Shown: one piece after another, positions 750 to 34,793 of the stretch | Position numbering within the stretch: the stretch's first letter is position 1 | Layout: each line of letters starts with the position of its first letter | NCBI GenBank assembly: GCA_029552245.1 | Contig: JAKPDW010000078.1 | Coordinates: 1 to 40,400 of the forward strand | Direction of reading: 5' to 3' | DNA from: Deltaproteobacteria bacterium | GTDB taxonomy: Bacteria > Desulfobacterota > Desulfomonilia > UBA1062 | DNA: 40,400 nucleotides | Notes under the pieces: generated by a model | What the model was told of the DNA's origin: nothing | What the model saw: the letters and a program-made list of their open reading frames with translations, nothing else | Databases searched by the model: none | Translations under genes and position numbers: made by a program

Positions 750-1901
750 TTACCGGAACCGCCCCAGGCCGTCCCGGGCGATGGAGACCCGCTGCCTCTC
801 CGTCGTCCCGTAGGCGAGCTCGGCGAAGCGGGCGTCCCGGTAGAGGCGCTCGATATCCGTCCCCCTCAGGTAGCCGTGGCCGCCGTGGGTCTGCATGGCC
901 AAATCGGCGATCTTGTTGACCGACTCGCCGGTGAAGACCTTCGCGCACGAGACGAGGACCGCCCCGTCCTCGGCCCCCCGATCGAGGGCCCACGCCGCCC
1001 GCAGGGTCAGCATCCGTCCCAGGTCGTTGTGGGTGAACATGACGGCCAGCTTCGCCCCCACCCCCTCGAAGTGACCGATGGGCTTCCCGAAGGCCCGCTT
1101 CTGTTTGCCCTGGCGCGTCGAGACCTCCATGCACGCCACCCCGATCCCCACGGACATGGCCGACATAGCCAGGCCGAGCCAACAAGAGACGGCGCTGAAG
1201 ACGCCCATCCCCCCGCCTTCACCCCCGACGAGGGCATCGGAAGGGACGAAGCAGTCCCGCAGGGTTATCCCCGCCGTCGGGGCGCCCCTGAGTCCCATGG
1301 TCTCCACCGTCTCTCCCACCTCCAGGCCCGGCGCGCCCCTGTCCACGAGGAAAAAGGAGAGTCCTCCATCCAAACCGGACTCGCGGTTCGTCCAGGCCAA
1401 AACGAGAAAGGTATCGGCCAGGGGGGCGTTGGTCACCAGGTCCTTGGCGCCCTCGAGGACCCAGCCGCCGGGGGCGGGACGCGCCTCCGTGACGATGCCC
1501 CCCAGGTCCGAACCCCCCGTCGCCTCCGTGGCGGCCAGGGCGCCGATGACCTCTCCCTTGACAATCCCGTCCAGAAAACGGGACCGCTGGCTCTGGGTGC
1601 CGAAAACGGCCAGGGTCCGACCGAAGGCCGTCCCCGAGGACATGGCGGCCAGGAAGGTGGAGGGGCAGGCCTTGGCCACCTCCTCCCCGGCGACGCACTG
1701 GGCGACGAAATCACCCCGGACGAGGGTTTCCATGTATCCCGCCGCGGCGAGCTTCCTGAGCCGGACCGGCAGGAGGGCCCTTATCTCCTCCCCCGCGCCG
1801 TTCGCCAAGATAGGGGCGTGCGGGGCGATCTCTTCACGACACAGGGCCCGGAGGCGCTTCTGGAGTTCCTTTTCCATCTCGGTCAATTCGTAGTCGATCA
1901 T
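750..1901 (-). CDS. Acyl-CoA dehydrogenase family protein, catalytic base missing
   Basis: This 383-residue flavoprotein-type protein has the acyl-CoA dehydrogenase fold: N-terminal helical part, middle beta domain (TEATGGSDLGG near residue 130) and C-terminal helical domain (RAFGKPIGHFEG, then THGGHGYLRG). The position that carries the catalytic Glu in short-chain enzymes (IYEGT) is Tyr364 here (AYGTTERQR). The alternative isovaleryl/long-chain Glu position is Leu. It may therefore be a non-catalytic subunit. It directly follows another acyl-CoA dehydrogenase gene 12 bp upstream, a layout used by heteromeric alpha2-beta2 dehydrogenases of steroid side-chain breakdown (ChsE-type). GGAGGT precedes the ATG by 5 bases. 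Last intact gene of the block. Family assignment is sure; partner role is inferred. Confidence 0.9.
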   Translation of the reverse strand: MIDYELTEMEKELQKRLRALCREEIAPHAPILANGAGEEIRALLPVRLRKLAAAGYMETLVRGDFVAQCVAGEEVAKACPSTFLAAMSSGTAFGRTLAVFGTQSQRSRFLDGIVKGEVIGALAATEATGGSDLGGIVTEARPAPGGWVLEGAKDLVTNAPLADTFLVLAWTNRESGLDGGLSFFLVDRGAPGLEVGETVETMGLRGAPTAGITLRDCFVPSDALVGGEGGGMGVFSAVSCWLGLAMSAMSVGIGVACMEVSTRQGKQKRAFGKPIGHFEGVGAKLAVMFTHNDLGRMLTLRAAWALDRGAEDGAVLVSCAKVFTGESVNKIADLAMQTHGGHGYLRGTDIERLYRDARFAELAYGTTERQRVSIARDGLGRFR

Positions 1902-1913: not shown

Positions 1914-3062
1914 TCACATCAACATGTAGCGGGCCACGATCATCCTCATGATATCCGAGGTGCCGCCGCCGAGCTGGCCGAGCTTGGCGTCCCTCATGCC
2001 CCGCTCCACGGGGTACTCGTGGATGTAGCCGTAACCGCCGAAGAGGTCCACGCCGGCGGAGCACATCTCGAAGCCCCGGTCGCCTACGTACATCTTGTTC
2101 ACCGACGCCAAGAGGGGATTGAGCATGACGCCGTTGTCCTTCGACGCCGCCACCCGATAGATCGCCAGCCGGGCCGCCTCGATGAAGATCCTCATGTCGG
2201 CGATCCGGTTCTGGATGGACTGGAACTCACCGATGGGCTGCCCGAAGGCCCAGCGCTGGTTGGCGTAACGGCAGCAGTTTTCGTACATGAACATGGCGTT
2301 CCCCAAGAAGGGCGACAGCAAGACGCTGCGGTCCCACTCCACGCCGCCCAGGGCGATCTCCCAGCCCTTGCCCTCCCCTCCCAGGAGGTTCTCCTCCGGG
2401 ACCTCGCAGTCCTCGAAGAAGACCTCGGAGGTGGTGGAACAGCGGCAGCCCATCTTGTGCATGGGATTCCCCGTGGAGATGCCGGGGAAATCCCTCTCGA
2501 CGATGAAGGCCGTTATACCCTTGTGCTTCCGCGCCCGGTCGATGGTGGCGAAGACGACGAAGACCTTGGCGAGGGGGGCGTTGGTGATGAAGGTCTTGGA
2601 ACCGTTGAGGACATAGCGGTCCCCCTTCTTCACCGCCGCGGTCACCAGGGCCGCCGCGTCGGAACCGCACCCCGGCTCGGTGAGACACATGCAGCCGATA
2701 TCCTCACCCGTGGCGAGACGCGGCAGGTAGCGCCGCTTCTGCGCCTCCGTGCCGTGGAGCATGATATTGGCCGCGCAGAGATAGGTGTGGGCCCCCAGGG
2801 CCAGGGTGTGTCCCCCGTCGATGCCCGCGTGGCCCATGGCCTCGCCGGCGAGGCAACAGGTCACGAAATCCGCCCCGCCGCCCCCGTACTCCTCAGGTAT
2901 GGGGAGGCCCAGGAGGCCCATGGCCCCCAGCCTGCGCCAGACCTCGAAACTGAACTCCCCCTTCAGATCGGCCTCCTCGCACAGGGGGGCGATCTCCTCC
3001 CGGCAGTACCGGTAAACCGTATCGCGGAACATCCGCTGCTCGTCCGTAAAGGTGAAATCCAT
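1914..3062 (-). CDS. Acyl-CoA dehydrogenase, likely partner of the next gene
   Basis: This 382-residue acyl-CoA dehydrogenase would oxidise an acyl-CoA to the 2-enoyl-CoA, passing electrons to ETF. Family features seen: PEEYGGGGADF, LTEPGCGSDAAA, GSKTFITNAPL, WAFGQPIGEFQS and FGGYGYIHEYPVERGMRD. The short-chain-type Glu position is Gly366 (QLGGGTSD). At the isovaleryl/long-chain-type position (helix G) there is Asp244 (VEWDRS) instead of Glu, so a base may be retained. ATG at 3062 was chosen over the GTG three bases upstream because it sits 6 bases after AGGAGG. The next gene (750-1901) lacks a base at both sites, so the two may form a heteromer with one active subunit. No ETF genes are in the window. 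Confidence 0.92.
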   Translation of the reverse strand: MDFTFTDEQRMFRDTVYRYCREEIAPLCEEADLKGEFSFEVWRRLGAMGLLGLPIPEEYGGGGADFVTCCLAGEAMGHAGIDGGHTLALGAHTYLCAANIMLHGTEAQKRRYLPRLATGEDIGCMCLTEPGCGSDAAALVTAAVKKGDRYVLNGSKTFITNAPLAKVFVVFATIDRARKHKGITAFIVERDFPGISTGNPMHKMGCRCSTTSEVFFEDCEVPEENLLGGEGKGWEIALGGVEWDRSVLLSPFLGNAMFMYENCCRYANQRWAFGQPIGEFQSIQNRIADMRIFIEAARLAIYRVAASKDNGVMLNPLLASVNKMYVGDRGFEMCSAGVDLFGGYGYIHEYPVERGMRDAKLGQLGGGTSDIMRMIVARYMLM

Positions 3063-3072
3063 CACGATCCTC

Positions 3073-3942
3073 CTATTCCTTGCGGATACCCATGATCCGA
3101 CGGGCCTCGGCGGTGGTGGCGGGCCGCCGTCCCAGGGAGGCGGCCACCTTCACCGCCCACTCCACCTGTTCCCAGTTTCCCTTGGCGAGGTCGCCGTTGG
3201 GCATCCGGGTGTTGTCCTCCAGGCCGACCCTCATGTGACCCCCCATGAGGCAGGACATGAAGTTCGCCGGAAACTGCTCGTTCCCCACGGCGCAGGTGGT
3301 GAAATTGGCCGTCTGGGGAAGGGCGTTGACCATGGCGATGAACACCTCGGGTCGGAACTTCTGTCCCCCCACGACCCCCCAGACGAAGTTGAAGTTCATC
3401 GGTTCCGTGAAGAACCCCTGTTTGCCGATGATGAGGGTGTTGTCGATGCCGCTGACGTCGTAGCACTCGATCTCGGGTTTGACGCCGTGGGACTCGAAGG
3501 CCCGGCCGAAGTCCTGGAGCATCGTGAAGGTGTTGTCGAAGAGGTAATCGAAGAGGATCTGACCCGTGTTGCGGTCGATGAGGCTGAAGTTCATGCTGTT
3601 GGTGTTGTAAGAGGCCATTTCGGGTCTGACGGCCAGGATCTGGGCGAGGCGCTGCTCCGGCGTCTTGAAGATCCCCACCGCCGAGCTGAGGCAGACGATC
3701 AAATCGGGGCAGCGGGACTTTATGGCGTCGTAGATGGCCTTGATCCGGTCGATCTCGTGGGTCGGCTCCCCGTCGTCCGTCCGCCCGTGGACGTGGACCA
3801 TGGCGGCCCCCGACTGATAACACCGGTAGGCCTCCTCGGCGAATTCCGCGATGGTGTAAGGCACGCCGGGGTTGTTGTTCTTCATGGTCGTGGCGCCGCA
3901 GAGGGCGGCGGTGATGATCACTTCCTTGGATGTTCTCGCCAT
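3073..3942 (-). CDS. Beta-keto acid cleavage enzyme (BKACE, DUF849 family)
   Basis: This 289-residue protein matches the BKACE/Kce family. Members use a divalent metal to condense a beta-keto acid with acetyl-CoA and release acetoacetate plus a shortened acyl-CoA. It opens with VIITAALCGATTM and has the metal-binding pair His50/His52 in MVHVHGRTDDGEPT. Further family segments include NFSLIDRNTG, the GHMRVGLEDN block near the C-terminus, and the ending ARRIMGIRKE. Length fits the family. The start was moved to ATG 3942, which follows AGGAGG by 8 bases; the longer frame runs into the preceding gene. It lies between a DUF35 gene and an acyl-CoA dehydrogenase pair, so its substrate is probably a beta-keto acid made by this cluster. 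Confidence 0.9.
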   Translation of the reverse strand: MARTSKEVIITAALCGATTMKNNNPGVPYTIAEFAEEAYRCYQSGAAMVHVHGRTDDGEPTHEIDRIKAIYDAIKSRCPDLIVCLSSAVGIFKTPEQRLAQILAVRPEMASYNTNSMNFSLIDRNTGQILFDYLFDNTFTMLQDFGRAFESHGVKPEIECYDVSGIDNTLIIGKQGFFTEPMNFNFVWGVVGGQKFRPEVFIAMVNALPQTANFTTCAVGNEQFPANFMSCLMGGHMRVGLEDNTRMPNGDLAKGNWEQVEWAVKVAASLGRRPATTAEARRIMGIRKE

Positions 3943-3965: not shown

Positions 3966-4415
3966 TCAAAGGGGTCTGAAGTGGTCTATCTGCATCAGGG
4001 TGTTGACGGGACCGTCGGCGAAGACGGCCTGGACCTTCATGCCCGGATAGACGTCCGCCGGGTCCACGTCGCCGACGATGTGGGTCAGGGGGGTGTCGGC
4101 CCCGGCGAGCCTTATCTGCCCGAGGACGTAGGGGGCCTTCTTCGGCGTGTGCTTGTCGTTGTACCTCACGACGGTGTAGTTGACCAGTTCCCCCGTCGTC
4201 CCCACCTCGACCCAGTTGTCGGCGATCCAGGACCAGCAACGGTGGCACTGTTCCCGGGGCGGCACGTAGGTGACGCCGCACTTCTCGCAGCGCAGCCCCA
4301 TGATCTTCTTCTGGTCCCGCATGGCGATGATCCACCGCGAGCCGATGCGGCCCACGAAGAACTGGTTGGGCAGGGCCATCTTCGCCTCGACGACGAAACA
4401 ATCCTTTAAGTCCAT
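3966..4415 (-). CDS. DUF35 Zn-ribbon/OB-fold protein, module I
   Basis: This 149-residue protein has the rubredoxin-like Zn ribbon Cys43-X2-Cys46 and Cys57-X2-Cys60 (RCEKCGVTYVPPREQCHRC), then an OB fold (VNYTVV, YVLGQIRLAGADTPLTH, GMKVQAVF). DUF35 proteins bind thiolase-fold enzymes and help form a CoA channel. Known examples are Ltp2-ChsH2, BbsAB, PhlACB and the archaeal thiolase/HMG-CoA synthase complex. The ATG at 4415 has GAAGGAG 8 bases upstream; the TTG further upstream overlaps the preceding stop. It follows the SCP2-DUF35 fusion by 17 bp and closes module I (B1-A1-fusion-DUF35). The helix before the ribbon (VGRIGSRWIIAMRDQKKIMG) resembles the other short DUF35 proteins here. Confidence 0.92.
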   Translation of the reverse strand: MDLKDCFVVEAKMALPNQFFVGRIGSRWIIAMRDQKKIMGLRCEKCGVTYVPPREQCHRCWSWIADNWVEVGTTGELVNYTVVRYNDKHTPKKAPYVLGQIRLAGADTPLTHIVGDVDPADVYPGMKVQAVFADGPVNTLMQIDHFRPL

Positions 4416-4432
4416 ATCTCGCGCTCCTTCCT

Positions 4433-5599
4433 TCAATCGATGATCTCAAAGTACAGGAGGTCCCGGAAGCTCCCCACGGTCTTCTCCGCCCACACGGGCC
4501 GGACCCGGGAACCGATCTTCAGGCGGGGGAGATCCTCCTTCTTGATCTCGAAGGCGAAGGCCTCCTCCGGTGACGCCCCGTCGAGCATGATCCAGGCGCA
4601 GGCGTAGGGCGTGTCACGAACGGCCCCCGTGAGGGGGTCGGGGCTGGCGTAGTAGACGAGGTCGTAGTTCGTCACGTACCCCTCCGGTCCCAGCTCGACG
4701 TACTCCCCCGCCCGGACGTGGCAGGAGGCGCAGACCTCCCGGGGATGGATCATGGTCCTCCGGCAGACGGGGCAGACGTTGGCCAGGAGCTTGCGTTCCC
4801 TCAGGCCGGCGAACCACTTCCCCATGACGGGGCCCGTGGCGAAACGCTGGTCGATGGAGGTGACCTTCTTCAGGGACAACAGCTCCTCCACCCGGGGGGC
4901 GTCGGGGGGGACGTACCGGTCGAAATATCGACCCGTGGCGGCCGCCGCCCCCATGTCGCCGTCGATCCTGACCTTGCCGGAGGTGAAGGCCGCCGTCGCG
5001 TCCATGGTGCCCGTCATGAGACCCACGAAGGTGGAGGCCTCCATGGTCATCTTCACGGCCGCGTCCTTCTCGAGTCCCTCGGTGACACGGCAGCGGCCGT
5101 CGGCGATGGCGACGGTGAACCGCCCTCCCCCCTCACCCGTCAGATCGTAGGCGAACTTCAGGCTCACGCCGGCGGCCTTGTCGGGGCGGAAGCGATCCGC
5201 CATGCCGGCGACGATGTCCCTCGCCGTGACGGGGGCCGGCCCCGGCACCCGGTAGGGCTTGAAGATCCGCGGCAGGAGGTTCATCAGCAAAGAGGCGTCC
5301 CCCGTGATCCTCAGCTTGCCCGAGGTGAGGGCGTCCAGGGCGGCGATCTTGTTGAGGGTGACGCCGATGAAGGTCTCCGCGTCGGCGGCGAAGACGGTGG
5401 CCGTGCAGGGGCCGAGGTCCCCCTCCACCTTCTCGACGGCCATGGCGCCCTCCCTGACCTTCAGGCGCCACTTGCCTCCCCCCTCGCCGCCGCACTCGTA
5501 ACCGACGACTACATCCACGTCCTTCGCCTCCTGGGGCTGGAAGCGCTCCGGCATGGTGTCGAATATGTCGTCAACGGTCGTTCCGTAGTACCGGCTCAT
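4433..5599 (-). CDS. SCP2-SCP2-DUF35 fusion protein, module I
   Basis: This 388-residue protein joins two sterol-carrier-protein-2 folds to a DUF35 domain. The first SCP2-like unit (about residues 30-115) contains the family pattern LTSGKLRITGDASLL. The second (about 135-225) contains FTSGKVRIDGDMG. The Zn ribbon is Cys276/Cys279/Cys290/Cys293 (VCPVCRRTMIHPREVCASC), followed by an OB fold ending FRDLLYFEI. SCP2 domains bind fatty acyl-CoA, sterols or other hydrophobic ligands, so the fusion could deliver a bulky acyl-CoA to the thiolase-fold partners encoded just upstream. Of two near ATGs, 5599 is chosen because it is 7 bases from AGGAGG while 5605 is only 1. In module II the same position holds a plain DUF35 (11689-12186) of the same subtype. 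The function is inferred. Confidence 0.9.
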   Translation of the reverse strand: MSRYYGTTVDDIFDTMPERFQPQEAKDVDVVVGYECGGEGGGKWRLKVREGAMAVEKVEGDLGPCTATVFAADAETFIGVTLNKIAALDALTSGKLRITGDASLLMNLLPRIFKPYRVPGPAPVTARDIVAGMADRFRPDKAAGVSLKFAYDLTGEGGGRFTVAIADGRCRVTEGLEKDAAVKMTMEASTFVGLMTGTMDATAAFTSGKVRIDGDMGAAAATGRYFDRYVPPDAPRVEELLSLKKVTSIDQRFATGPVMGKWFAGLRERKLLANVCPVCRRTMIHPREVCASCHVRAGEYVELGPEGYVTNYDLVYYASPDPLTGAVRDTPYACAWIMLDGASPEEAFAFEIKKEDLPRLKIGSRVRPVWAEKTVGSFRDLLYFEIID

Positions 5600-5610: not shown

Positions 5611-6807
5611 CTACCAGTTGGGTTCCTTCTCGAGGATCATCAAAACGGTCCACAGGCTGCCGCCGAATCCCGACGCCAGGGCGTGGCGGACCTCCTTCTT
5701 TATCTGATGGCCCCCGGCGTCACCCCGGATCTGGAGGGCCGCCTCGGCGATGCGGAGCATGGCCGTGGCCCCGATGGGGTTGCTGGCGATGACGCCGCCC
5801 GAGGGATTTACGGGGAGCTTTCCGTCGAGGTCGAACTCGCCGGCCTCGAGGAGACGGAGGTGTTCGTCCCCCTCGAGGAGGAGGAACTCCCCGAGCCAGT
5901 CGACGGCCCAGAAGGCGGAGGGGTCGTACATCTCGAAGACGTCGAAATACCCCAGGGGGTCCGTGATGCCGTTGCGGGCGAAAAGACGCTCGGCGCAGTC
6001 CCGGTGGGTGCTCTTGGGCTTCCGCGCGCCGTAGAGGTTCGACATGTTCTCCTCCCGGTGGGAGGTCTCGTGGTCCCTGATCCAGACGGGCGGCTTGGCC
6101 GTCCCCTCCCTCACCCGGTCTTCCGAGGTGAGGATCATGGCGCAGGCCCCGTCGGACTGGGAGCACATGTGGATCAACCGCAGCTCCCCGACGAGCTGGG
6201 GCGAGGTCTCCATGAGGGTCTCCATCTGATCGTACTCGAGGCCGAGGCGCCGATGGGCCCGGGGGTTGAGCATGGCGTGCTTGTCCATCATGATGCGGTA
6301 CTTCATGGCCGCCCTCAGGACCCGTTCCTTCCCGAACTTCTGGATCAGCTCCATCGCCGTGGTGGACGTGAGGGCGCCCGTCTGGAGGTTCCGGAACCAG
6401 AGGGGGTCGGCCATGTTGGTGATGCCGCCCGTCGTGTTCCCCTCCTGGAGCTTCTCGAAGCCGATGCACAAGACGGTGTCGTAGAGGCCGGACGCCACGA
6501 GGTTGTCGGAGGCGCAGACCAACGTGGCCCCCACGGTCCCGCCGGTGGTGATGCGATACTCCTCCTTGCCGTAGGAACCGCAGCCCAGGGCGTGCCACAT
6601 GTCGGGCTGGAACTGCATCTCGAAGAGCTCCATGTTGCCGTGGACGACGCAGTCGATATCGTCGATGGTCTTACCGGCGTCCTCCAGGGCGTTCCTCACC
6701 GCCTCCGCCACCATCTCCACCTGGTTCTGGTCTTCCTTGTGACTGGACAGGGCCGTCTGACCGATGCCGATGATGGCCACGTTCCTGTTCTTCCTGTGTT
6801 TCTGCAT
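5611..6807 (-). CDS. Thiolase-fold protein type A1 (SCP-x/Ltp2-like), catalytic Cys absent
   Basis: This 398-residue protein has the full thiolase fold of the SCP-x/lipid-transfer group: VAIIGIGQT at the N-terminus, SDGACAMIL mid-protein and VNPSGGVIASNPIGAT at the C-terminus. The nucleophile position (Cys in NNNCATGST of SCP-x) is Gly89 in ITTGGTVGAT. The GHP histidine is Asn343. Ordinary thiolysis is therefore unlikely; aldol or retro-aldol chemistry as in Ltp2, or a structural role, are alternatives. AAGGAGG precedes the ATG. B1 lies 15 bp upstream and the SCP2-DUF35 fusion 11 bp downstream, consistent with one complex. Its closest relatives in the window are A2 and A3. Confidence 0.9.
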   Translation of the reverse strand: MQKHRKNRNVAIIGIGQTALSSHKEDQNQVEMVAEAVRNALEDAGKTIDDIDCVVHGNMELFEMQFQPDMWHALGCGSYGKEEYRITTGGTVGATLVCASDNLVASGLYDTVLCIGFEKLQEGNTTGGITNMADPLWFRNLQTGALTSTTAMELIQKFGKERVLRAAMKYRIMMDKHAMLNPRAHRRLGLEYDQMETLMETSPQLVGELRLIHMCSQSDGACAMILTSEDRVREGTAKPPVWIRDHETSHREENMSNLYGARKPKSTHRDCAERLFARNGITDPLGYFDVFEMYDPSAFWAVDWLGEFLLLEGDEHLRLLEAGEFDLDGKLPVNPSGGVIASNPIGATAMLRIAEAALQIRGDAGGHQIKKEVRHALASGFGGSLWTVLMILEKEPNW

Positions 6808-6822: not shown

Positions 6823-7980
6823 TTAAGCCTCGAGGATGAGGACGGAATGGAACTGACCGGCCGGGCCGTTGGTGGAGTGGGCCACGGCGCACCTCGCATC
6901 GGGGACCTGGTGGTCCCCCGCCTCGCCCTTCAGCTGCAGGGCCGCCTCCACGGCGCGGTAGAGACCGGCGATGATCATGGGATTGCCGGCCAGGGCCCCG
7001 CCGGACAGGTTCACCCGGTACTTCCCGGGACCGCCCTCGTCGATGAAGCGGGCCCCTTCCCCGTCGCCGCAGAACCCCAGCCCCTCCATCCACATAGGCT
7101 GCTGGTAGGCGTAGCAGTCCATGACCTCCACGACGTCGGCGGCCCCCTTCAGATCGCGGATCCCCGCGCGTTCGCAGGCCTTGGCCGCGGCCTTCTTCAG
7201 GGCGAAGTTGGAGGTCAAGTCCCGGTCCCCGAAGAAAAAGGCGTCCATGGCGTTGGCGAAACCCGTGATCCAGACGGGCCGGTCCGTGTATTCCCTCGCC
7301 CTCTCCTCCGAGGCGAGGAGGAGCCCCACGGCGCCGTCGGAGACGGGGTAGGCGTGGAGCTGCCGGATGGGGTCGCACAACATGGGCGAGGCCTTGACCT
7401 TCCCCGGGGGCAGCGTCTCGCGGGCGTTGGCGTAGGGGTTCTTGGCCGCCCATTGGCGGCTCCGCGCGACGATCCGGGCGAGGTGGTCGTCCGTGAGGCC
7501 GCTCTTGGCCATGTAGGCCCGGGCCTGGAGACCGGCGGCGTTGAGGTAGTCGAGACCCACGGCCCGGCCGTAGAAGGGGTCGAAACCGCAGTTGGTGATG
7601 AGGTTGCGGCTCTCCCCCTGGGATTCCTTGCAGTGTCCCATGATGAGGACGACGTCCTTGTGACCCGAGAGGATAACGGCGTTGGCGTAGCCGATGGCGT
7701 TGAGCCCCTCCTGGGCCATCTTCTCCTCGGCGAGGTACTGGCCGCCGAGGACGTCCTGGACACCGTTGTTGGAGATGGTCCGGGCGTCGAGGAAGTCGTC
7801 GGACACGCTGACGATCTGCTCCACCCCCCCTTCACCGTACCGGAAACCCGTCTGTCTCTGGAGGTCTTCCAGGATCTCCAGGAGCATCCCCTGGAAGCGC
7901 GTGTGCCAGAGATCCGGGTCGTTCTTGAGCTGGGCGACGGCACAGATGGCCACCCTCTTCTTTCCGACTCCAACGGTCAT
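6823..7980 (-). CDS. Thiolase-fold protein type B1, catalytic residues absent
   Basis: This 385-residue thiolase-fold protein is the second type found in each module. It has VAICAVAQL, a long N-terminal half with DDFLDARTISNNGVQDVLGG, mid-protein VSDGAVGLLLASEERAREYT, and C-terminal NLSGGALAGNPMIIAGL. At the nucleophile region it reads MAQEGLNAIGY, with no Cys. GHP is replaced by GNP. The tail GPAGQFHS lacks the Cys that its paralogues B2 and B3 carry (CGQ-X2-C). AAAGGAGG sits 5 bases before the ATG. It starts module I and is followed by A1 after 15 bp. A/B heteromers are plausible by analogy with the two-component PhlAC and archaeal thiolase/HMG-CoA synthase pairs; the reaction is not known. 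Confidence 0.88.
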   Translation of the reverse strand: MTVGVGKKRVAICAVAQLKNDPDLWHTRFQGMLLEILEDLQRQTGFRYGEGGVEQIVSVSDDFLDARTISNNGVQDVLGGQYLAEEKMAQEGLNAIGYANAVILSGHKDVVLIMGHCKESQGESRNLITNCGFDPFYGRAVGLDYLNAAGLQARAYMAKSGLTDDHLARIVARSRQWAAKNPYANARETLPPGKVKASPMLCDPIRQLHAYPVSDGAVGLLLASEERAREYTDRPVWITGFANAMDAFFFGDRDLTSNFALKKAAAKACERAGIRDLKGAADVVEVMDCYAYQQPMWMEGLGFCGDGEGARFIDEGGPGKYRVNLSGGALAGNPMIIAGLYRAVEAALQLKGEAGDHQVPDARCAVAHSTNGPAGQFHSVLILEA

Positions 7981-8002: not shown

Positions 8003-8605
8003 TCAGGCGAAACGGATGATCCTTGGCGCCTTGGTAGGCTTTCTCTTGACCTCCCCGGCGGCGAAGCAGTTCACGAAGCGGCCCTCCTTGACGGCCCGGA
8101 TGATGGCGTCCTTCTCCAGGGCCCCGTCCAGCTCCACCCAGCAGCGCCCGCATCCCGAGGGGGTGTGGGCGTCGTCGGCGGCCACCTTGGGGTACGGGAT
8201 CTCGGGGATGTCGAACTCGGGGGTGTAGAAGCCGTGGCTCGTCACCTCCACGGCGTCGATGGGCTGGACGGCGGCGACCTCGGCGATGAGGCGGGCGCAC
8301 TCCCGGGGTGAGACGCCGAGATCGGCGGGGTGGTTGAAGATGTGGAGCACCTCCCGTTCCCCCTCGATGCGGCTGACGTGGACGTACCCCTTGCGGCAGT
8401 GGATCGTCAGCTCGATGCCCGTGAAAATCAGCAGGGGGGAGTCCAGGGCGGCGATGGTGTCGCCGTAGGAGGGCTTGAGGAGGTGGTCGTGATCCGTGAC
8501 GGCGAGGAAATGGAACCCGAGCCGCTCGTAGGCCGAGACGACCTCTTCGGGCGTCATGGTGCCGTCCGAGAAGGTCGTGTGGACGTGAAACTGACCCCTG
8601 AGCAT
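8003..8605 (-). CDS. PHP-domain metal-dependent hydrolase
   Basis: This 200-residue protein has the PHP metal-binding series: HVHTTFSDG near the N-terminus, AVTDHDHL, GIELTI, FNHPAD, and DDAHTPSGCG near residue 150. PHP enzymes use two or three metal ions, usually to hydrolyse phosphoesters; the substrate here is unknown. ATG 8605 follows an AGGTG by about 6 bases and places the first metal motif right at the N-terminus. A GTG three codons upstream is an alternative start. It lies between a CrtI-like gene (9 bp upstream) and the module I thiolase-fold pair, so it is co-transcribed with acyl-CoA genes. A second PHP gene is at 19213-19911. Confidence 0.85.
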   Translation of the reverse strand: MLRGQFHVHTTFSDGTMTPEEVVSAYERLGFHFLAVTDHDHLLKPSYGDTIAALDSPLLIFTGIELTIHCRKGYVHVSRIEGEREVLHIFNHPADLGVSPRECARLIAEVAAVQPIDAVEVTSHGFYTPEFDIPEIPYPKVAADDAHTPSGCGRCWVELDGALEKDAIIRAVKEGRFVNCFAAGEVKRKPTKAPRIIRFA

Positions 8606-8614
8606 GGCGTTCAC

Positions 8615-10141
8615 CTAACGGATCCCGAAGTCCTTGCCCAGGATCTCCCCCGCGCAGATGACCCCGGAGGCGATGGCGCAGTCCATGGCCACGCCGTAGC
8701 CCTTGGCCGTGTCGCCGGCGAAGTACAGGCCCTCCACGTGCTCCGACTTGACGGGCACCTTCTGGGTCCCCGCCTGGGAGATGCTCTTGGCGACCCCCTC
8801 CAGCTTCCAGCAGACGAGGTCGATCTTCCAGTCTATGCTTTCCCTGAAGCCGGGGTAGATCTCCTCCATGAACTCGGGGAGACGCTTTATCAATTTGCCC
8901 ACGAGGTCGCGGTTGAGGGCCTCCTTCTCCGTCAGGGGGAGATAGGCCGTGTAGAGGTACTTGCCCGCCGGCGCCACGGACGGATCCACGGCCGACTGGA
9001 TGTTCCAGCAGATGTAAACGTCGTAGTCAAACCCCTCCGTCCGGGGGAGGACGCAGGTGTGCTTGATCCCCATCTTCGCCTCCTCTTCGGGCATGACGAG
9101 GCGGTTGAGGCCCATGTAGGGGACGTAGCTGCCGTAACCGTAGAGGGACTCCGTCTTCTTCGCCCACTGTTCGGGGAAGTGCCTCCGGTCGATGACCCGG
9201 AAGGTGTGCTGGGCGGGAATGTTGCTCACCACGCAGGGGGCGGCGAAGACCTCTTCCCCCGCCGTCGTCTGCGCCCGGACGCCGACGACGCGGCCGTCCT
9301 CCACGAGGATCTCCTTCACGGGGCTCTCGAAGCGGATCTCGCCGCCGAATTCCCGGAACCTCCTCACGACGGCCAGGGACCACTCCATGGTCCCCCGGCC
9401 GACGAAGCCCCCCACCCAGCCGAGGACGCCCCGGTTGAGTTTCGGGCCGAAGGCGTGTTTGAAGTAGCGGAAGATGTCGCCGATGGAGATGTCCTTGGGG
9501 TCGTTGATGGTGGAGAAGAGGGTGCTCACCGAGTGGAGGTGGTTGAAGATGACGTCGCTCTTCGTGATCCCCTTGGCCTCGGCCCACTGTTGGAAAGACA
9601 CCTTCTCCAGGCGGTCGATCTCCTCCTCGGGCAGGGTGTAGGCGTCGGAGTAGAAGGACAAGAAGGGTATCTTCAACTCCTTGCCGATCTTCTTGAGCTG
9701 GGGATCGATGAAACTCCCGGCGACATCCCTGTAGAGGGTCCCCCGGTAGTAATTACCGTACATGGCCCCGTGCTTGTCCACCCCGGGGAGGCCGCCGATG
9801 AGGTCCTCGAAGTCCAGCATATAGCCGGCCCCGTTGGCGCTGATGGCGTGGTAACCCACGTCGAGGGTGAAACCGTCGAGGAGGCGCCGGTCGATGATCT
9901 CCTCCATGGGCGGCTCCGAGGAGGCGATGTAGGTGTACTGGGAGGCCAGGACCTTCCGGTACCAGTCCAGACCCTTGTCGCAGATCTCCTCCCCCCGCAT
10001 GGACAGGGCCCGGCCGCCGGGGCGGTCGAGCTGTTCCAGGACGAGGACCTTTTTACCTTCCTTCGCCAGGAGGGTGGCCACAGCCAGGCCGCCCACGCCG
10101 GCGCCGACGACGATGGCGTCGTATCTTCTTGGTTCCGTCAT
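8615..10141 (-). CDS. CrtI-like FAD-dependent oxidoreductase
   Basis: This 508-residue protein belongs to the phytoene desaturase/amine oxidase superfamily. The N-terminal dinucleotide fold reads [20 protein letters not shown], with PGGRALS after it. The C-terminal FAD motif reads [18 protein letters not shown]. Family members desaturate, isomerise or saturate C=C bonds in lipids, carotenoids or rings with bound FAD; no membrane segment is obvious. A paralogue sits at 27784-29187. The gene follows the CrtC/AttH-like gene by 35 bp, so two carotenoid-type enzyme families lie together, suggesting a polyunsaturated or cyclic hydrophobic substrate. Start ATG 10141 has GGAAAGGA upstream. Specific activity is unknown. 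Confidence 0.88.
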
Positions 10142-10176: not shown

Positions 10177-11199
10177 TCAAAGGACCATGTACTCGTGGAG
10201 CATCTCGCCCCGCACAAGATCCCTCTCGCCGTCGATCTGAATATCCAGGACGTAGTCCCCGAGGAAACGGAAGTAGAACTGATCCCACGCCGCGGCCTTG
10301 GGCAGGCGCATGGACTCCACGAGGCGGGTGGTTTCGATGGTCAGCTCCATCTTCACCCCCAGATTGTCCGTGGAGACGACGAGACGCCGGGCGTAGGGTT
10401 TCATCGTCTTGGGGTCCGTCGCGAAGTCGTCCAGGCGGGTACGCATGATATTGGTGGACAGGACGATCTCGCCGCCCCGGGCGACCATGAGGGGTGACAC
10501 GACGGGGGCCTCGGGGTCGCGGGGAAGGACCCAGCCGTAGTCGACGCAGTAATCGCCGTGGTGGACCCTCCCCCAGTACCAGGACGAGCAGATCTCGTGG
10601 AGGCGCATGTTCCCCCAGTTGTGGTCATGGTAGGCGGCGCCCTTCACGGGGATCGCCACGCCGTCCAGGTACAGCTCCCCCTCCGCCCGGGCGTAGGGCA
10701 CGGGCACCACCCAGCCCGCCACCTTCCCCGTCTCCTCGTTCTTGTAGTTGAAGCCGCTGCCGAGCTTCCACCCGGGGACGACGTTCTCCAGGGTCAGCCT
10801 CGCCCCCGCGCCGTCGATCACCAACTCCAGGTCGTATCTACCGCCGCCCAGGTCCCTCAGGCGGCCGTCACCCATGCGGACGTCGCACCAGTCGGGGCAG
10901 GCAAACGTCTCCCTGGGTTTCCAAGCGGCGAAACGGGCCGTCTGGGCGCCGTCGGGGCCGTAGATCATGACCTGGGTGGTGGGGATGATGGGGTCGAGGA
11001 AATGGTTTCGGAAGTGGAAGGTGATGACGGCGTGATAGCCGTTGTCGAAGGAGCAGTCCACGTACCACCACTCGTAGTAATCCCCCTCCGTGTAGATGTG
11101 GCTCCCGTCGTCGCGCCGCTGGTAGTTGGCGGGGTTGCGCTCCGCCCCCGGGACGCCGTCGAAGGAGGCCAAATAGCAGCGTCTCTCTTTTTCGTCCAT
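10177..11199 (-). CDS. CrtC/AttH-like lipocalin-domain protein
   Basis: This 340-residue protein resembles the carotenoid 1,2-hydratase (CrtC)/AttH lipocalin-like family. Near residue 42 it has the typical YEWWYVDCSF. Mid-protein it has AAYHDHNWGNM followed by SSWYWGRVHHGDYCVDYG, which matches the region holding the acid/base residues of CrtC. CrtC adds water to terminal isoprenoid double bonds; related proteins catalyse cyclisations. No signal peptide or membrane helix is seen. GGAGGAAGGG lies just before ATG 11199; the longer frame upstream overlaps the DUF35 gene and is rejected. It sits between module II and the CrtI-like gene. A hydratase or cyclase acting on the cluster substrate is the likeliest role. 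Confidence 0.75.
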   Translation of the reverse strand: MDEKERRCYLASFDGVPGAERNPANYQRRDDGSHIYTEGDYYEWWYVDCSFDNGYHAVITFHFRNHFLDPIIPTTQVMIYGPDGAQTARFAAWKPRETFACPDWCDVRMGDGRLRDLGGGRYDLELVIDGAGARLTLENVVPGWKLGSGFNYKNEETGKVAGWVVPVPYARAEGELYLDGVAIPVKGAAYHDHNWGNMRLHEICSSWYWGRVHHGDYCVDYGWVLPRDPEAPVVSPLMVARGGEIVLSTNIMRTRLDDFATDPKTMKPYARRLVVSTDNLGVKMELTIETTRLVESMRLPKAAAWDQFYFRFLGDYVLDIQIDGERDLVRGEMLHEYMVL

Positions 11200-11688: not shown

Positions 11689-12186
11689 CTATGACCCGGG
11701 TCTGGACTGATCCGGCAGGGGCTCAAAGTGGACGATGTCGCTCAGATCCCCCACGCGCTCCCCCGGCGGCCGCAGGACGACCCGGCAGCGCATGCCGACC
11801 CACACCTTCCCCCTGTCGGGCTCGGCGTGGATCAGGTGGTCCAGGACGGAGTCGCAGCCGTCGAGGCGGACGGACCCGTAGACGAAGGGAGGCTCGTGGG
11901 GCTTGCCCGTCGTGGGGTCCGTCAGGGGCAGAAACATGATGGTGAAGGCCACGAGGGTACCCTCCAGGGGCAGCTCGACCCAACGGCCGTTCCTTACGTG
12001 ACACTGGGCGCACACGATCCGGGGCGGCAGCTGGATCCGCCGGCACCGGGGGCACTCGACGGCGAAGATCCGGCCGTTGTCCCGCAGCTGGGTCAGGGTC
12101 TTCGTCAGGTAGCGCCCCGCGGCGAAGCGGTAGGGCACGTCCACCGTCATGGGGATGGAGATCCATTCCGTCTCTCTCGCAGTCAT
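11689..12186 (-). CDS. DUF35 Zn-ribbon/OB-fold protein, module II (first)
   Basis: This 165-residue protein has ribbon cysteines 45, 48, 59 and 62 (ECPRCRRIQLPPRIVCAQC) and an OB fold (LVAFTIMFLPLTDPTTG, VYGSVRLDG, GMRCRVVLRPP). The segment before the ribbon (RFAAGRYLTKTLTQLRDNG) resembles that of the DUF35 part of the SCP2 fusion in module I (RFATGPVMGKWFAGLRERK). It therefore fills the same slot without the SCP2 domains. AAGGAG lies 6 bases before the ATG. It follows type A2 by 13 bp. Probable partner of A2 in a thiolase-fold/DUF35 complex. Confidence 0.92.
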   Translation of the reverse strand: MTARETEWISIPMTVDVPYRFAAGRYLTKTLTQLRDNGRIFAVECPRCRRIQLPPRIVCAQCHVRNGRWVELPLEGTLVAFTIMFLPLTDPTTGKPHEPPFVYGSVRLDGCDSVLDHLIHAEPDRGKVWVGMRCRVVLRPPGERVGDLSDIVHFEPLPDQSRPGS

Positions 12187-14538: not shown

Positions 14539-15720
14539 CTACAGCCTCTCGAAGACGGTGGCGATCCCCTGGCCGCCGCCGATGCACAGGGTGGCCAGGC
14601 CGTAGCGGCCGTTGGTCCTCTTGAGGTGTCCGAGAACGGCCAGGACGAGACGGCCGCCGCTCATGCCGTTGGGGTGGCCGAAGGCGATGGCCCCGCCGTT
14701 GGGGTTCCACTTCTCGCGGTCGACGGCGTAGCCGTTCTTCTCGAGCTCCTTCATCACCGCCAGGGTCTGGGCGGCGAAGGCCTCGTTGCATTCCACGACG
14801 TCCATGTCCTCCAGGCGCAACCCCGCCCTTTCGAGGGCCTTGGGGACGGCGTAGGCCGGGGCGATACCCATGTATTTGGGTTCGACGCCCGCCAGGGCGC
14901 AGGCGACGAAACGGCCCAGGGGTTTGAGACCCAGGGTCTCGCACCGCCGACGGGACATGACGAGGATGGCCACGGCCCCGTCGTTCAGCCCCGACGAGTT
15001 GCCCGCCGTGACGGTCCCGCCCCTCTTGAAGGCGGGCCCCAGGGCGGCGAGCTTCTCCATGGTCGTGGCGCGGGGGTGTTCGTCCCGGTCGAAAACGACC
15101 GTCTCCCCTTTCTTCCGGATGACGACGGGGACGATCTCATCCCGGAAATAGCCCCTCTCGATGGCCTCCAGGGCCCGCTCCTGGCTCCTTAAGGCGTAGG
15201 CGTCCTGCTCCTGACGGCTGACGTTCCACTCCTCGGCCAGGATCTCCGCGACGATCCCCATGGGGGCGTTCGTCTCGGGCGTGGGGCCGACTTCCCGGGT
15301 GATGAAGGCGTTGGGGGCCAGGGAGTAGGGGACCTTCTGGCGTTCCATGAGGTAGGGCTGGTTACTCCAGCTCTCGCAGCCACCGGCGATGTAGACCTCG
15401 CCGAACCCCGCCATGATGGCCATGGCGGCCGTGTTGACCGTCTGGAGGGAGGAGCCGCACTGCCTCTCCACCGTCTGGGCCGTCACGGTGGGGGGAAAAC
15501 CGGCCTTGAGGACGGCCCAACGGGCGATGTTGACGGCGGCGTGGTTGGTGCAGGCGTGGCCGATGAGGACGTCGTCCACCAGGGCGGGATCGAGGCCCGT
15601 TTTCTTGATGAGGCCCTCCAGGGCCACGGCGGCCAGTTCCTCGGGACGGAGGGACGCCAGGGACCCCCCCATCCTCCCGATGGGGGTACGGACCCCCGCG
15701 ACGATGTACACCTCTGTCAT
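14539..15720 (-). CDS. Acetyl-CoA C-acyltransferase (classical thiolase)
   Basis: This 393-residue thiolase cleaves 3-ketoacyl-CoA with CoA to acetyl-CoA and a shortened acyl-CoA. All catalytic elements are present: nucleophile Cys88 in RQCGSSLQTV, the GHPNGMSGGR histidine motif and the C-terminal CIGGGQG cysteine motif. The conserved NEAFAAQTLAV and GNSSGLNDGAVA segments also fit. GAGGAT precedes the ATG. It lies between the enoyl-CoA hydratase (10 bp upstream) and the module II B2 gene (10 bp downstream). A second classical thiolase opens the whole block at 36502. No signs of damage. Confidence 0.94.
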   Translation of the reverse strand: MTEVYIVAGVRTPIGRMGGSLASLRPEELAAVALEGLIKKTGLDPALVDDVLIGHACTNHAAVNIARWAVLKAGFPPTVTAQTVERQCGSSLQTVNTAAMAIMAGFGEVYIAGGCESWSNQPYLMERQKVPYSLAPNAFITREVGPTPETNAPMGIVAEILAEEWNVSRQEQDAYALRSQERALEAIERGYFRDEIVPVVIRKKGETVVFDRDEHPRATTMEKLAALGPAFKRGGTVTAGNSSGLNDGAVAILVMSRRRCETLGLKPLGRFVACALAGVEPKYMGIAPAYAVPKALERAGLRLEDMDVVECNEAFAAQTLAVMKELEKNGYAVDREKWNPNGGAIAFGHPNGMSGGRLVLAVLGHLKRTNGRYGLATLCIGGGQGIATVFERL

Positions 15721-19212: not shown

Positions 19213-19911
19213 TCATGCCCCCACACCGCCGCGTCTTCCCCTCGGTCCCCCCTTCCCTGCCGGCCCGCCCCTGCCCCGGGCGGCCACGGCGGCCACACGG
19301 CGTTCCCGGACGGCCCGGCAGAGGTCCTCCATGGCCGCGATGGTATCGAAGAACAGGGTCCGGCAGGCACCGACACCGGCCAGGTCGTGGGCGTCGCTGC
19401 CCCCGACGCCGGCGACGCCCAGGTCCTCCGCGGCCCTTCTCGCCAGGGCGAGACCCTCCTCGTCGTAGGACGGGTGGATCACCTCGAGGCCGTCGATCCC
19501 GTAATCGTAGACACCCATCCCGGCGCCGTAGAACCCCCCCGGGTCGGCGGCGGCCCTCTTGAACGGATGGGCGGCGATGACCACCCCCCCCACGGCGTGG
19601 ACCATCTCCAGGACCGACGCCACGGCCCGGGAGGAACCGAGGCTCCGGGGGTATCCGAAGACGAGGAACTCCCCCTCGAAGACACCGCTTGGGGAGAAGC
19701 ACGCCACCTCCTGGCCCGCCAGGACCAAGAGTCCCGCCTCCGCCCCGGCCTCGGCGAGGGGGCGCAGCTTCTCCTCGGGCCAGAGGATCCCGTGCTCCGT
19801 CAGAACGACGCCGTCCAGGCCCACCTCCACGGCCCGCCTGACGAGGAGGTCCGCGTCGAGGTTGCTGCATCCCGAGTACCGGTTCGTGTGGATGTGGAGA
19901 TCGAACTCCAT
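19213..19911 (-). CDS. PHP-domain metal-dependent phosphoesterase-like protein
   Basis: This 232-residue PHP protein begins directly with the first metal motif, DLHIHTNRYSGCSNLD. It then shows VLTEHGILWP, GQEVACF, IAAHPFKR and GGSDAHDLAGVGAC, the full set of PHP metal ligands. The last roughly 25 residues are Gly/Arg-rich (RGRGGPAGKGGPRGRRGG) and look like a disordered tail. Substrate is unknown; family members hydrolyse phosphoesters. It follows an acyl-CoA dehydrogenase by 30 bp and precedes PaaK-type ligase 1. It is distinct in sequence from the PHP protein at 8003-8605, so this is a second recruitment rather than a recent copy. Confidence 0.85.
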   Translation of the reverse strand: MEFDLHIHTNRYSGCSNLDADLLVRRAVEVGLDGVVLTEHGILWPEEKLRPLAEAGAEAGLLVLAGQEVACFSPSGVFEGEFLVFGYPRSLGSSRAVASVLEMVHAVGGVVIAAHPFKRAAADPGGFYGAGMGVYDYGIDGLEVIHPSYDEEGLALARRAAEDLGVAGVGGSDAHDLAGVGACRTLFFDTIAAMEDLCRAVRERRVAAVAARGRGGPAGKGGPRGRRGGVGA

Positions 19912-21095: not shown

Positions 21096-21554
21096 TCACG
21101 CCGCCGGCCTTCGCCCCACGAGGGCCCGGGTGGTGTAGACGACCACGTCCTCCCCCCGCTGGTTCTTGATGGCGTTGTTGGCCACGATGATCCCCGATCT
21201 CTCGTCCTTGACCTCCAGATTCTCCACCGTCACCTCGCAGTGGATGGTGTCGCCGATCTTCACGGGGGCGGTGAAACGGACCTTGTCCATGCCGTAGAAG
21301 GCGATGAACGACTTGGGTATGGCCACGAAGGGCCCCAGGCGGAAGATCAGGGCGCTGCCCACGCAGAGGCTCAGCATGCCGTGGGCGATCCGTTCGCCGA
21401 AGGGTGTCTTCTTGGCGTACTCCACGTTCGTGTGGAGGGGGTGCCAGTCCCCCGTGAGCATGGAAAACATGACGATGTCCGTCTCCGTGACGGTCCGCCC
21501 CGGTGACGTGAACACCTCTCCCACCCGGTAGTCCTCGAGATAAACCTTCTCCAT
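21096..21554 (-). CDS. MaoC-like (R)-specific enoyl-CoA hydratase
   Basis: This 152-residue hot-dog-fold protein carries the hydratase-2 motif with Asp36 and His41 (LTGDWHPLHTN), followed by PFGERIAHGMLSL. It would hydrate an enoyl-CoA to a 3-hydroxyacyl-CoA and complements the crotonase-type hydratase at 15731. AAAGGAGG lies 6 bases before ATG 21554. It sits between the 600-residue acyl-CoA dehydrogenase (11 bp upstream) and another dehydrogenase (14 bp downstream). A branched or bulky acyl-CoA substrate is plausible, since bacterial steroid side-chain routes use MaoC hydratases for such steps; that is inference. Confidence 0.9.
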   Translation of the reverse strand: MEKVYLEDYRVGEVFTSPGRTVTETDIVMFSMLTGDWHPLHTNVEYAKKTPFGERIAHGMLSLCVGSALIFRLGPFVAIPKSFIAFYGMDKVRFTAPVKIGDTIHCEVTVENLEVKDERSGIIVANNAIKNQRGEDVVVYTTRALVGRRPAA

Positions 21555-21565
21555 GGATCCTCCTT

Positions 21566-23368
21566 TCACAGGGACGCCTCGGGAACCCTCAGGGCCGAGT
21601 CGTCCTGAAGCTTGATGATCCGGGCCCGCCCCATCACCTGGGGGAGCAAATTCTTGAAGTAGTAGCGGACCGTCATGATCTTCCCCTCGTAGAAGGGGAG
21701 GTCCGCCGCGGTCGCCCCTCCTTCGAGCCTCTCCCGGGCCGTGAAGGCCTGCTCCAGGAGGAGATGGGCCACCGCCGTCTCGGCGACGCAGTCGAGGAAG
21801 CGGGTCGCCGTGAGGGAGATGAGATCCGTCTTCGCCGCCTTCATGGAGGCCTCGTAGAGGGAGACCACCTCGAGGAGGGCCGCCGCGGCCTCACCGAGGA
21901 GGGACGCCTCTTCCCGGAAAAGGTCGTCCTGACGGGCCCGCGCGGCGAGGCCCTTCACTTCGCCGAGCCAGTCCTGGAAGACCTTTCCGCCCTCCATGGG
22001 GATCTTGCGGGCGATGAGGTCGAGGGCCTGGATGTAGTTCGTCCCGTCCCAGATGGAGAAGATCTTGCCGTCCCGGACGTACTGCTCGACGGGGTATTCC
22101 TTGGTGAAACCGTAGCCCCCCAGGATCTGGATACCCTCCCTCCCGAGTTCGTAGAGGCGGTCCGACCCGTAGGCCTTCACCAGGGGCGTGAGGAACCCCA
22201 GACGCGCCGCCGCCGCGGCCCTCTCCTCGGCCGTGGACGCCGCCTTGGCCAGGTCCTCCATGAGGTAGGCCTTAAACACCAAGGCCCGCAGCCCCTCCGT
22301 GACGGCCTTGATGTTCATGAGCATCCGGCGGACGTCGGCGTGTTCCACGATCCTCACGCGTCCCTGGGTCTTCCCGAAGGGGACGCCCTGGACGCGCTCC
22401 TTGGCGTAGGCCAGGACGTTGGCGTAGATGTTGGCCCCGAAGGCCACGGACTCGAGGCCGACGGCCATGCGGGCCAGGTTCACCATGTCGAACATATAGG
22501 CCAGACCCAGGCCCGGTCTCCCCACGAGGAAACCCCGGCACCTGCCGTTCTCCCCGAAGTTCAGGACGCAGGTGGCGGAGCCGTTGAGGCCCATCTTGTG
22601 CTCGATGCCGACGCACGTCACATCGTTGGGCTCCCCGAGGGACCCGTCCTCGTTGACCCAGATCTTGGGCACGGCGAAGAGGGAAACACCCTTCGCCCCC
22701 GGGGGCGCCCCCTCGATCCGGGCGATGACGAGGTGGATGATGTTCTCCGTCAGGTCGTGCTCCCCCGAGGTGATGAAGATCTTCGTCCCCTGGATGCTGT
22801 AGAGGTCATCGGCGACGGGGGAGGCCTTCGTCGCGACGAGATGGGCGTCGGAACCGACGGCCGGTTCCGTCAGACACATGGTGCCGCACCAGGTGCCGTC
22901 GTACATCTTGGGGACGAAGAGGGCCTTCAGGGCGGGGGAGCCGTATTTCTCGATCATGGCCCCGTTGCCCGGCCCCATGCCGGCGTAACACATGAAGGCG
23001 AAATTGGCGCTCATGAAGAATTCCTGGGCCGCCTCCGCCACGGTGAGGGGCAGGCCCTGGCCGCCGAAGGCGGGGTTGCAGGCGAGGGAGAACCAGCCGC
23101 CCTCCTTGAACACCTGCCAAACGCGGTGAAAGGACGGCGGCACCGTGACCTTCCCGTTCTCGAAACGGCAGCCGTCGCGGTCTCCGTCCTGAAAGGTGGG
23201 GGCCACGACGTCGGCGGCGATGCGCTGGGCCTGGTCCAGGATCAAGTCGAAATCCTCTCTGGCGAAATGACGGTAGGCCTCGAGGTTCAACAGCCCCTGC
23301 ACCTTCAGGTGCTCCCAGAGGACGAACCTCAGGTCCCGGTCGTCCCGTTTGTAAAGATTCCGGCCCAT
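21566..23368 (-). CDS. Large acyl-CoA dehydrogenase (DmdC/FadE5-like, 600 residues) with Asp base
   Basis: This 600-residue protein is of the long acyl-CoA dehydrogenase class with an extra C-terminal domain (DmdC, FadE5). It shows LTEPAVGSDAHL, GTKIFITSGEHDLTENI, a glycine-rich insertion near residue 215, and LGGYGFTKEYPVEQYVRD. The extra C-terminal helices run from about residue 465 onward. The catalytic Glu in the usual YEGT is Asp441 (IWDGTNYIQALDL). The ribosome site AAGGAGGTG is contributed by the end of the upstream TetR-like remnant, whose TAA abuts this ATG. The Asp could slow or redirect the elimination; it is a clean substitution in otherwise intact sequence. Confidence 0.93.
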   Translation of the reverse strand: MGRNLYKRDDRDLRFVLWEHLKVQGLLNLEAYRHFAREDFDLILDQAQRIAADVVAPTFQDGDRDGCRFENGKVTVPPSFHRVWQVFKEGGWFSLACNPAFGGQGLPLTVAEAAQEFFMSANFAFMCYAGMGPGNGAMIEKYGSPALKALFVPKMYDGTWCGTMCLTEPAVGSDAHLVATKASPVADDLYSIQGTKIFITSGEHDLTENIIHLVIARIEGAPPGAKGVSLFAVPKIWVNEDGSLGEPNDVTCVGIEHKMGLNGSATCVLNFGENGRCRGFLVGRPGLGLAYMFDMVNLARMAVGLESVAFGANIYANVLAYAKERVQGVPFGKTQGRVRIVEHADVRRMLMNIKAVTEGLRALVFKAYLMEDLAKAASTAEERAAAAARLGFLTPLVKAYGSDRLYELGREGIQILGGYGFTKEYPVEQYVRDGKIFSIWDGTNYIQALDLIARKIPMEGGKVFQDWLGEVKGLAARARQDDLFREEASLLGEAAAALLEVVSLYEASMKAAKTDLISLTATRFLDCVAETAVAHLLLEQAFTARERLEGGATAADLPFYEGKIMTVRYYFKNLLPQVMGRARIIKLQDDSALRVPEASL

Positions 23369-31977: not shown

Positions 31978-32457
31978 CTATGGCAGAAGATCGAAGTATT
32001 TGATGTCCTGGATGTTTCCCTCCATCTCTTCGGGATTCTTGAAGACCGCCCGGACCCTCATGCCCACCTTGATCTTGTGCCAATCCTTCTCGTTGATGAG
32101 GTGGGAGAAGATGTTGTCCGCCCCGTCGAGGCGTATGTAACCGTAGGTGTAGGGGATGGGCCTTAGCTCCCCCGTGGCGGGATCGATGAAGGGGTAGTTC
32201 ACCACGGAGAAGGCCGTGAGGACCCCCGTGTCGGACAGGGGCACCAACTCCGTCAGTTCCCGGAAGCAGGGCCCGCACACCCGCCGGGGCGGCACGTAGA
32301 CGGAGCCGCAGCCGTCGCAACGGATGCCGATGAAACGCCTCTTTTCCCTGATCTCCTGGAAAAATCTGCTGCCGTACCGGCCGATGGACCACTCGTACGG
32401 CATGGGGTGCTTGAAGGTGATCTCCAGTCTCTCCACGGGCGTACCGTTTTTCTCCAT
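31978..32457 (-). CDS. DUF35 Zn-ribbon/OB-fold protein, module III (distal)
   Basis: This 159-residue protein has ribbon cysteines 47, 50, 61 and 64 (CDGCGSVYVPPRRVCGPC) and an OB fold (LTAFSVVNYPFIDPATG, YTYGYIRLDGADNIFSHL, GMRVRAVF). The leading helix IGRYGSRFFQEIREKRRFIG resembles the DUF35 proteins at 3966 and 11211. AAGGGG precedes the ATG. It follows type A3 by 16 bp, the same order A then DUF35 as in modules I and II. Expected to bind A3 and shape the CoA channel. Confidence 0.92.
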   Translation of the reverse strand: MEKNGTPVERLEITFKHPMPYEWSIGRYGSRFFQEIREKRRFIGIRCDGCGSVYVPPRRVCGPCFRELTELVPLSDTGVLTAFSVVNYPFIDPATGELRPIPYTYGYIRLDGADNIFSHLINEKDWHKIKVGMRVRAVFKNPEEMEGNIQDIKYFDLLP

Positions 32458-32473
32458 GTGAAACTCCCCTTTC

Positions 32474-33634: not shown

Positions 33635-33642
33635 GATTCACC

Positions 33643-34788: not shown

Positions 34789-34793
34789 AGGTC

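Follow-up and report, generated by a model that had tools for sequence, protein, structure and literature searches.

Gene and domain layout

The window, i.e., the whole analysed stretch of 40,400 nucleotides of contig JAKPDW010000078.1 from a deltaproteobacterial assembly (GCA_029552245.1), carries on its reverse strand a gene for a protein with two SCP2 domains, a disordered linker and a C-terminal DUF35 part, which is preceded by two thiolase-like genes (ThlA and ThlB) and followed by a second, plain DUF35 gene (Table 1).

Table 1 Features of the window and the evidence on which they were placed
Feature	Position	Strand	Evidence
SCP2-SCP2-DUF35 protein, 388 aa	4433..5599	(-)	ATG at 5599, stop 4433-4435
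SCP2 domain 1, residues ~7-115	5255..5581	(-)	Pfam on domain alone, model of domain alone
SCP2 domain 2, residues ~123-228	4916..5233	(-)	Pfam on domain alone, fold search
Disordered linker between SCP2 pair and DUF35, residues 235-254	4838..4897	(-)	pLDDT <50
DUF35 part, zinc ribbon (C276, C279, C290, C293) and OB fold, residues 263-388	4436..4813	(-)	Pfam, alignment, fold
ThlB, thiolase-like, without thiolase Cys/His, invariant Y294-D-P	5611..6807	(-)	Profile, alignments
ThlA, thiolase-like, without thiolase Cys/GHP	6823..7980	(-)	Profile, alignments
PHP-domain protein, operon head	8003..8614	(-)	Locus comparison
DUF35a, plain DUF35 just downstream, the second zinc-ribbon/OB subunit; true start maybe further in	3966..4436	(-)	
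BKACE, a beta-keto acid cleavage enzyme that follows in most loci	3073..3936	(-)	
Acyl-CoA dehydrogenase ACAD2, wider cluster	1914..3065	(-)	
Acyl-CoA dehydrogenase ACAD1, wider cluster	750..1901	(-)	
Plain DUF35, 165 aa, matching slot of module II (comparison)	11689..12186	(-)	Pfam
MaoC-type hydratase; homolog directly after DUF35 pair in ligase-type operons	21096..21569	(-)	

The initial annotation had proposed two sterol-carrier-type folds followed by DUF35 in a single protein, with a plain DUF35 in the corresponding slot of module II, and both were recovered. Pfam searches with the whole protein returned SCP2 (PF02036, 2.1e-23) over two stretches, Alkyl_sulf_C (an SCP2-like fold) at residues 7-109, OB_ChsH2_C at residues 300-370 (6.4e-7) and PF01796 with 29.6 bits (cut-off 27.1), while zf-ChsH2 (residues 263-296, 1.8e-4) scored 21.7 bits, just below its curated cut-off of 23.2. 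The doubling of SCP2 held when each repeat was searched by itself: residues 1-122 matched SCP2 (9e-8, 32.8 bits, cut-off 21.3) as well as Alkyl_sulf_C (3.2e-8), and residues ~120-232 matched SCP2 (3.7e-15, 56.5 bits, same cut-off). As the AlphaFold model of the whole protein, built from 17 orthologs, reached a mean pLDDT of 78.9 with a pTM of 0.37, the domains are considered sound and no claim is made on their arrangement relative to each other. The second SCP2 domain aligned with alkylsulfatase SCP2-like domains (Z 16.2) and with the SCP2 domain of human MFE-2 (1IKT, Z 14.1), and the first one, modelled by itself (pLDDT 92.6, pTM 0.84), matched the same two kinds of domain with Z 13.9 and 12.0; a different fold for the N-terminal repeats was thus ruled out by the per-domain Pfam and fold matches. 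For the DUF35 part, the best fold matches were the DUF35 subunits of Ltp2-ChsH2 (6OK1 chain D, Z 10.8) and Sal-Shy (Z 10.1), and the four zinc-ribbon cysteines were invariant in 17 out of 17 orthologs.

An SCP2 HMM from which the window's own copies were removed matched a single one of the 310 frames of the window, the SCP2-SCP2-DUF35 ORF, and had no match in 1000 shuffles plus the reversed sequence. This control, together with a start codon and Shine-Dalgarno sequence kept across orthologs and the existence of orthologs with 42-72% identity, rules out a chance or mis-framed ORF.

Distribution and operon structure

The search for other proteins with this domain order, as suggested in the initial annotation, retrieved those orthologs at full length from relatives. 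Both SCP2 domains were found at one place, in frames of ~390-430 aa, in 12 of 395 sampled genomes of the phylum. Among 118 genomes sampled as relatives of a Spirochaetes MAG, 20 had a match that spanned either the larger part of the protein or a piece of it. Named ortholog records include Deltaproteobacteria, Syntrophaceae, and Spirochaetes MAGs, assignments that should be treated cautiously, as is generally the case for MAG taxonomy.

The operon PHP-ThlA-ThlB-[SCP2n-DUF35]-DUF35 occurs in several families of the phylum as well as in the Spirochaetes MAG and its relatives, and its order was the same in ~30 loci wherever the contig was long enough, small rearrangements aside. Downstream of DUF35a, the usual order is a beta-keto acid cleavage enzyme followed by acyl-CoA dehydrogenases. 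The SCP2-SCP2-DUF35 gene starts after a gap of 11 nt from ThlB in the window, and its Shine-Dalgarno sequence overlaps the ThlB stop codon in orthologs (TGGTAGGAGG), an arrangement that fits a matched production of the subunits. Two PHP-domain genes are present in the window (8003-8614 and 19213-19911), and the first one heads the operon in nearly all loci. ACAD1 was also checked for an inert half of the ChsE1/ChsE2 type, and the positions of the base were found to align poorly across the ACAD1 set.

Several other parts of the window were inspected. At 31978-35465 there is a further module, the third, of thiolase-like and DUF35 genes; its gene order differs, and its homologs lie close to module I in several relatives. 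Its DUF35 gene (34794-35465) was considered as a second fusion and rejected, as the long open frame contains no SCP2; translation probably starts near MTDWLREVEP, yielding a plain DUF35. A large sigma-54-dependent protein with TPR, GAF, AAA+ and Fis-type HTH domains is encoded at 36715-39891 (+), with the catabolic genes on the other strand, and is a candidate regulator. Between modules I and II, a CrtC-like lipocalin-type protein (10177-11196) and a CrtI-like FAD oxidoreductase (8615-10141) are encoded, a possible hint at an isoprenoid-like substrate. Steroids, hopanoids and terpenoids were considered as substrates, and none was assigned, as nothing specific in the cluster backs any of them.

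SCP2 copy number and ligase fusions

The number of SCP2 domains in the slot after ThlB varies. Two copies are present in the window type and most other loci, as well as in the first copy in L097; three copies occur in L110, L111 and L112, and one copy in L053, L094, L095, L097 and L101. A single locus (L100, on a contig with unresolved bases elsewhere) has none, and the room between ThlB and DUF35 amounts to only 27 nt there. The variants with no copy and with one copy show that the core enzyme does not need two SCP2 domains.

Proteins of the window type have two copies with 25-46% identity to each other, and first copies cluster with first copies, which identifies the two, at the level of sequence, as old and diverged. 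On the same kind of evidence, the extra copies have at least two separate origins: the second copy was duplicated in L110, L111 and L112 (84-89% identity), and in a lineage with ligase fusions (see below) the repeats within a protein are 80-94% identical. Several proteins have copies that resemble one another more than they resemble the copies in other species, suggesting recent duplication or gene conversion. On inspection of its sequence, the L053 paralog with its single SCP2 resembles a first copy at its start and a second copy thereafter, consistent with a loss through recombination between repeats.

One lineage has an acyl-CoA ligase joined to the N-terminal side, giving ligase-SCP2(1-3)-DUF35 in the same slot after ThlA-ThlB. 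These proteins carry one (L098, L099, L100), two (L096) or three SCP2 domains (L079, L093, L094, L095), and their ligase portion exceeds the curated cut-off for PRK06187, a long-chain acyl-CoA ligase subfamily. For instance, L079:2352-5447 encodes an acyl-CoA ligase, three nearly identical SCP2 domains and DUF35 directly after the ThlA/ThlB orthologs. The window's own nearest ligases differ in type (PaaK-like) and are not adjacent. In L101:6758-7665, one TGA breaks a ligase-SCP2-DUF35 frame, either through a sequencing error or in a broken gene. Another way to join SCP2 and DUF35 in one system is seen in L080:3700-8573, where a 908-aa polypeptide combines KAS III-like, DUF35, SDR, and SCP2 parts next to a 708-aa MFE-2-like hydratase-SDR-SCP2 protein and a Cys-containing SCP2-thiolase-type gene.

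A thiolase-fold pair without thiolase residues

Both ThlA and ThlB were assigned to the thiolase fold family by profile. An alignment of orthologs and solved thiolases placed TTGG(T) at the nucleophile loop of ThlB, with no Cys in any of 37 sequences, and [SAT]NP at the GHP position, with no His (37/37). ThlA has [AS]Q[ED][GS] at the loop and G[NS]P at the GHP position, again with neither Cys nor His among the variants listed for 34 sequences. In place of the HDCF motif of SCP2-thiolases, ThlB has an invariant MYDP (37/37), with Tyr294 aligned to the His of HDCF. This position is occupied by YDHF in Ltp2 and YDCY in Sal (PMC12329534), where the Tyr acts as the catalytic base of retro-aldol cleavage and the DUF35 partner is required (PMC12329534; PMC12502768). 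The second catalytic residue of these enzymes (Tyr344 in Ltp2, Cys304 in Sal) was compared at the Sal position, where ThlB has Pro296 and thus lacks the Cys, and with Pro in place of the His of Ltp2 and the Cys of Sal the active site is not the same. ThlB thus resembles the Ltp2/Sal family in sequence, a likeness short of established membership, and its nearest PDB sequences are SCP2-thiolases, not Ltp2.

Two ordinary Cys-type thiolases with Thiolase_N/Thiolase_C domains are encoded elsewhere in the window (14539-15720 and 35270-36541), so that ThlA/ThlB need not supply thiolysis and a non-thiolase role is left open. Judging from these residues, the most likely enzyme served by the DUF35 subunit is a C-C lyase other than a thiolase, and ThlA/ThlB would be better named a thiolase-fold enzyme, possibly of the aldolase type. 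The initial annotation had placed SCP2 on the partner subunit of a thiolase: the pairing of the SCP2-SCP2-DUF35 protein with the adjacent ThlA/ThlB is well supported by the invariant operon order and by known DUF35 biology, the complex itself being predicted, whereas the term thiolase finds no support, the Cys and the His of GHP being missing in the orthologs compared.

Proposed role and alternative explanations

Taken as a whole, the data are best explained by a DUF35 subunit that bears an SCP2 carrier arm and serves a Tyr-type C-C lyase of the thiolase fold, an explanation to which we give a somewhat better than even chance. A heteromeric enzyme would be formed by ThlA, ThlB, the SCP2-SCP2-DUF35 protein and the second DUF35. 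The DUF35 end would dock on the ThlA/ThlB core, by analogy with ChsH2 on Ltp2 and Shy on Sal and in line with the operon structure, and the two SCP2 domains, on a flexible linker of 20 residues, would bind a CoA-activated substrate non-covalently by its hydrophobic part. The arm would receive the substrate after the acyl-CoA ligase and dehydrogenase steps and keep it at the mouth of the active site, and the core reaction would probably be not thiolysis but a Tyr-based, retro-aldol-like C-C cleavage by Tyr294 of ThlB. Points that speak against this explanation are the variants with fewer than two SCP2 domains, the Pro in the MYDP motif and the SCP2-thiolases as nearest PDB sequences of ThlB, the neighbouring BKACE, and the type and position of the ligases in the window. 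The delivery of a hydrophobic acyl-CoA to ThlA/ThlB by SCP2, put forward in the initial annotation, is plausible, while the bulk of the substrate is something that we infer; a tethered non-covalent carrier of hydrophobic acyl-CoA is favoured by the variation in SCP2 number and by the ligase fusions. A further reading, offered tentatively, would see tandem SCP2 as the non-covalent counterpart of tandem acyl carrier proteins, with an array of one to three domains leading from pickup at the ligase to the Cys-less lyase through the DUF35 dock. Equally tentative is the idea that, in such an array, the copies would be kept similar by duplication or gene conversion, with the ligase fused or neighbouring.

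The main rival is a structural role, in which the SCP2 repeats bind no ligand and form a scaffold or oligomerisation arm for the ThlA/ThlB/DUF35 assembly or dock neighbouring enzymes. We regard it as unlikely, if well worth considering: the flexible copy number and the SCP2-free DUF35 in the same slot of L100 speak for it, but SCP2 folds elsewhere bind lipid, the alkylsulfatases that provide the nearest folds work on aliphatic substrates, and both the near-identical repeat expansions and the ligase fusion fit a carrier better. Alternatively, the complex could join acyl-CoA units, with the SCP2 repeats holding a growing hydrophobic product. Such condensation is carried out by DUF35 complexes of the PhlABC and archaeal HMG-CoA synthase types, and the related L080 polypeptide has a KAS III-like part together with DUF35, SDR and SCP2; the abundance of dehydrogenases, hydratases, thiolases and a CoA-transferase-type protein in the cluster is, however, typical of degradation, and the nucleophilic Cys of a Claisen condensation is missing, which makes this reading improbable. 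The neighbouring BKACE is a hint of beta-keto acid chemistry, which could mean condensation or another cleavage. Least probable is a true thiolase (acyl-CoA C-acyltransferase) with the SCP2-SCP2-DUF35 protein as a BbsA-like partner, even though ThlA/ThlB match thiolases and SCP2-thiolases best in sequence and DUF35 proteins do partner benzoylsuccinyl-CoA thiolase (7PXP) and archaeal acetoacetyl-CoA thiolase (6ESQ). The residues missing from all 37 ThlB sequences and the listed ThlA variants, as well as the separate Cys-type thiolases in the same window, argue against it.

One operon slot offers a natural series running from no SCP2 domain to three, in which some members have a substrate-activating ligase on the chain and others do not, so that the role of a tethered SCP2 for an acyl-CoA enzyme becomes directly testable by domain deletion or swapping. 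The series also points to a widespread thiolase-fold system in uncultivated bacteria that lacks thiolase residues and is as yet uncharacterised.

Comparison with known systems

The best-known role of SCP2 is that of a lipid-transfer module in animals, and what it does beside beta-oxidation enzymes is still debated. The parallel to animal SCP-x drawn in the initial annotation is a loose one: in both cases SCP2 is linked to a thiolase-family system, but SCP-x carries one SCP2 on the active thiolase itself, while in the window SCP2 sits on the DUF35 protein, i.e., on the partner subunit of a core without Cys and His. MFE-2 and the hydratase/SDR-SCP2 proteins likewise tether SCP2 to beta-oxidation enzymes, there on the catalytic polypeptide, and the MFE-2-type domains grouped apart from the SCP2 of DUF35 proteins in a tree that has few columns and is weakly resolved. 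The closest folds to both SCP2 domains, the C-terminal SCP2-like domains of the bacterial type III alkylsulfatases (SdsA1, Pisa1, SdsAP), belong to hydrolases of the metallo-beta-lactamase fold without DUF35 or a thiolase core.

A fusion of SCP2 and DUF35 was listed in 2010 for the SSO2064/PF01796 family, with acyl-CoA delivery proposed (PMC2954200); that report names the fusion class only, and mentions no tandem copies, copy-number variation, ligase fusion or PHP-ThlA-ThlB operon. We found no description of tandem SCP2, of a ligase-SCP2 fusion or of this operon in the open-access literature searched, although one may exist elsewhere. The fusion as such is therefore already known, and what appears to be new are the tandem and variable copies, the ligase-SCP2n-DUF35 proteins and the operon with a Cys-less pair.

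The nearest known parallels are the steroid side-chain aldolases ChsH2/Ltp2 (6OK1) and Shy/Sal (9MYR), in which a DUF35 zinc-ribbon/OB protein is, as predicted for the window, the partner of a Tyr-using thiolase-fold enzyme, and whose clusters contain dehydrogenases and a MaoC hydratase, as does the cluster in the window. The window system differs from them in having a second DUF35 gene and two distinct thiolase-like subunits, in the motif (MYDP in ThlB vs. YDHF/YDCY in Ltp2/Sal), and in the extra domain on DUF35, which is a MaoC hydratase in the ChsH2/Shy systems and one to three SCP2 domains here.
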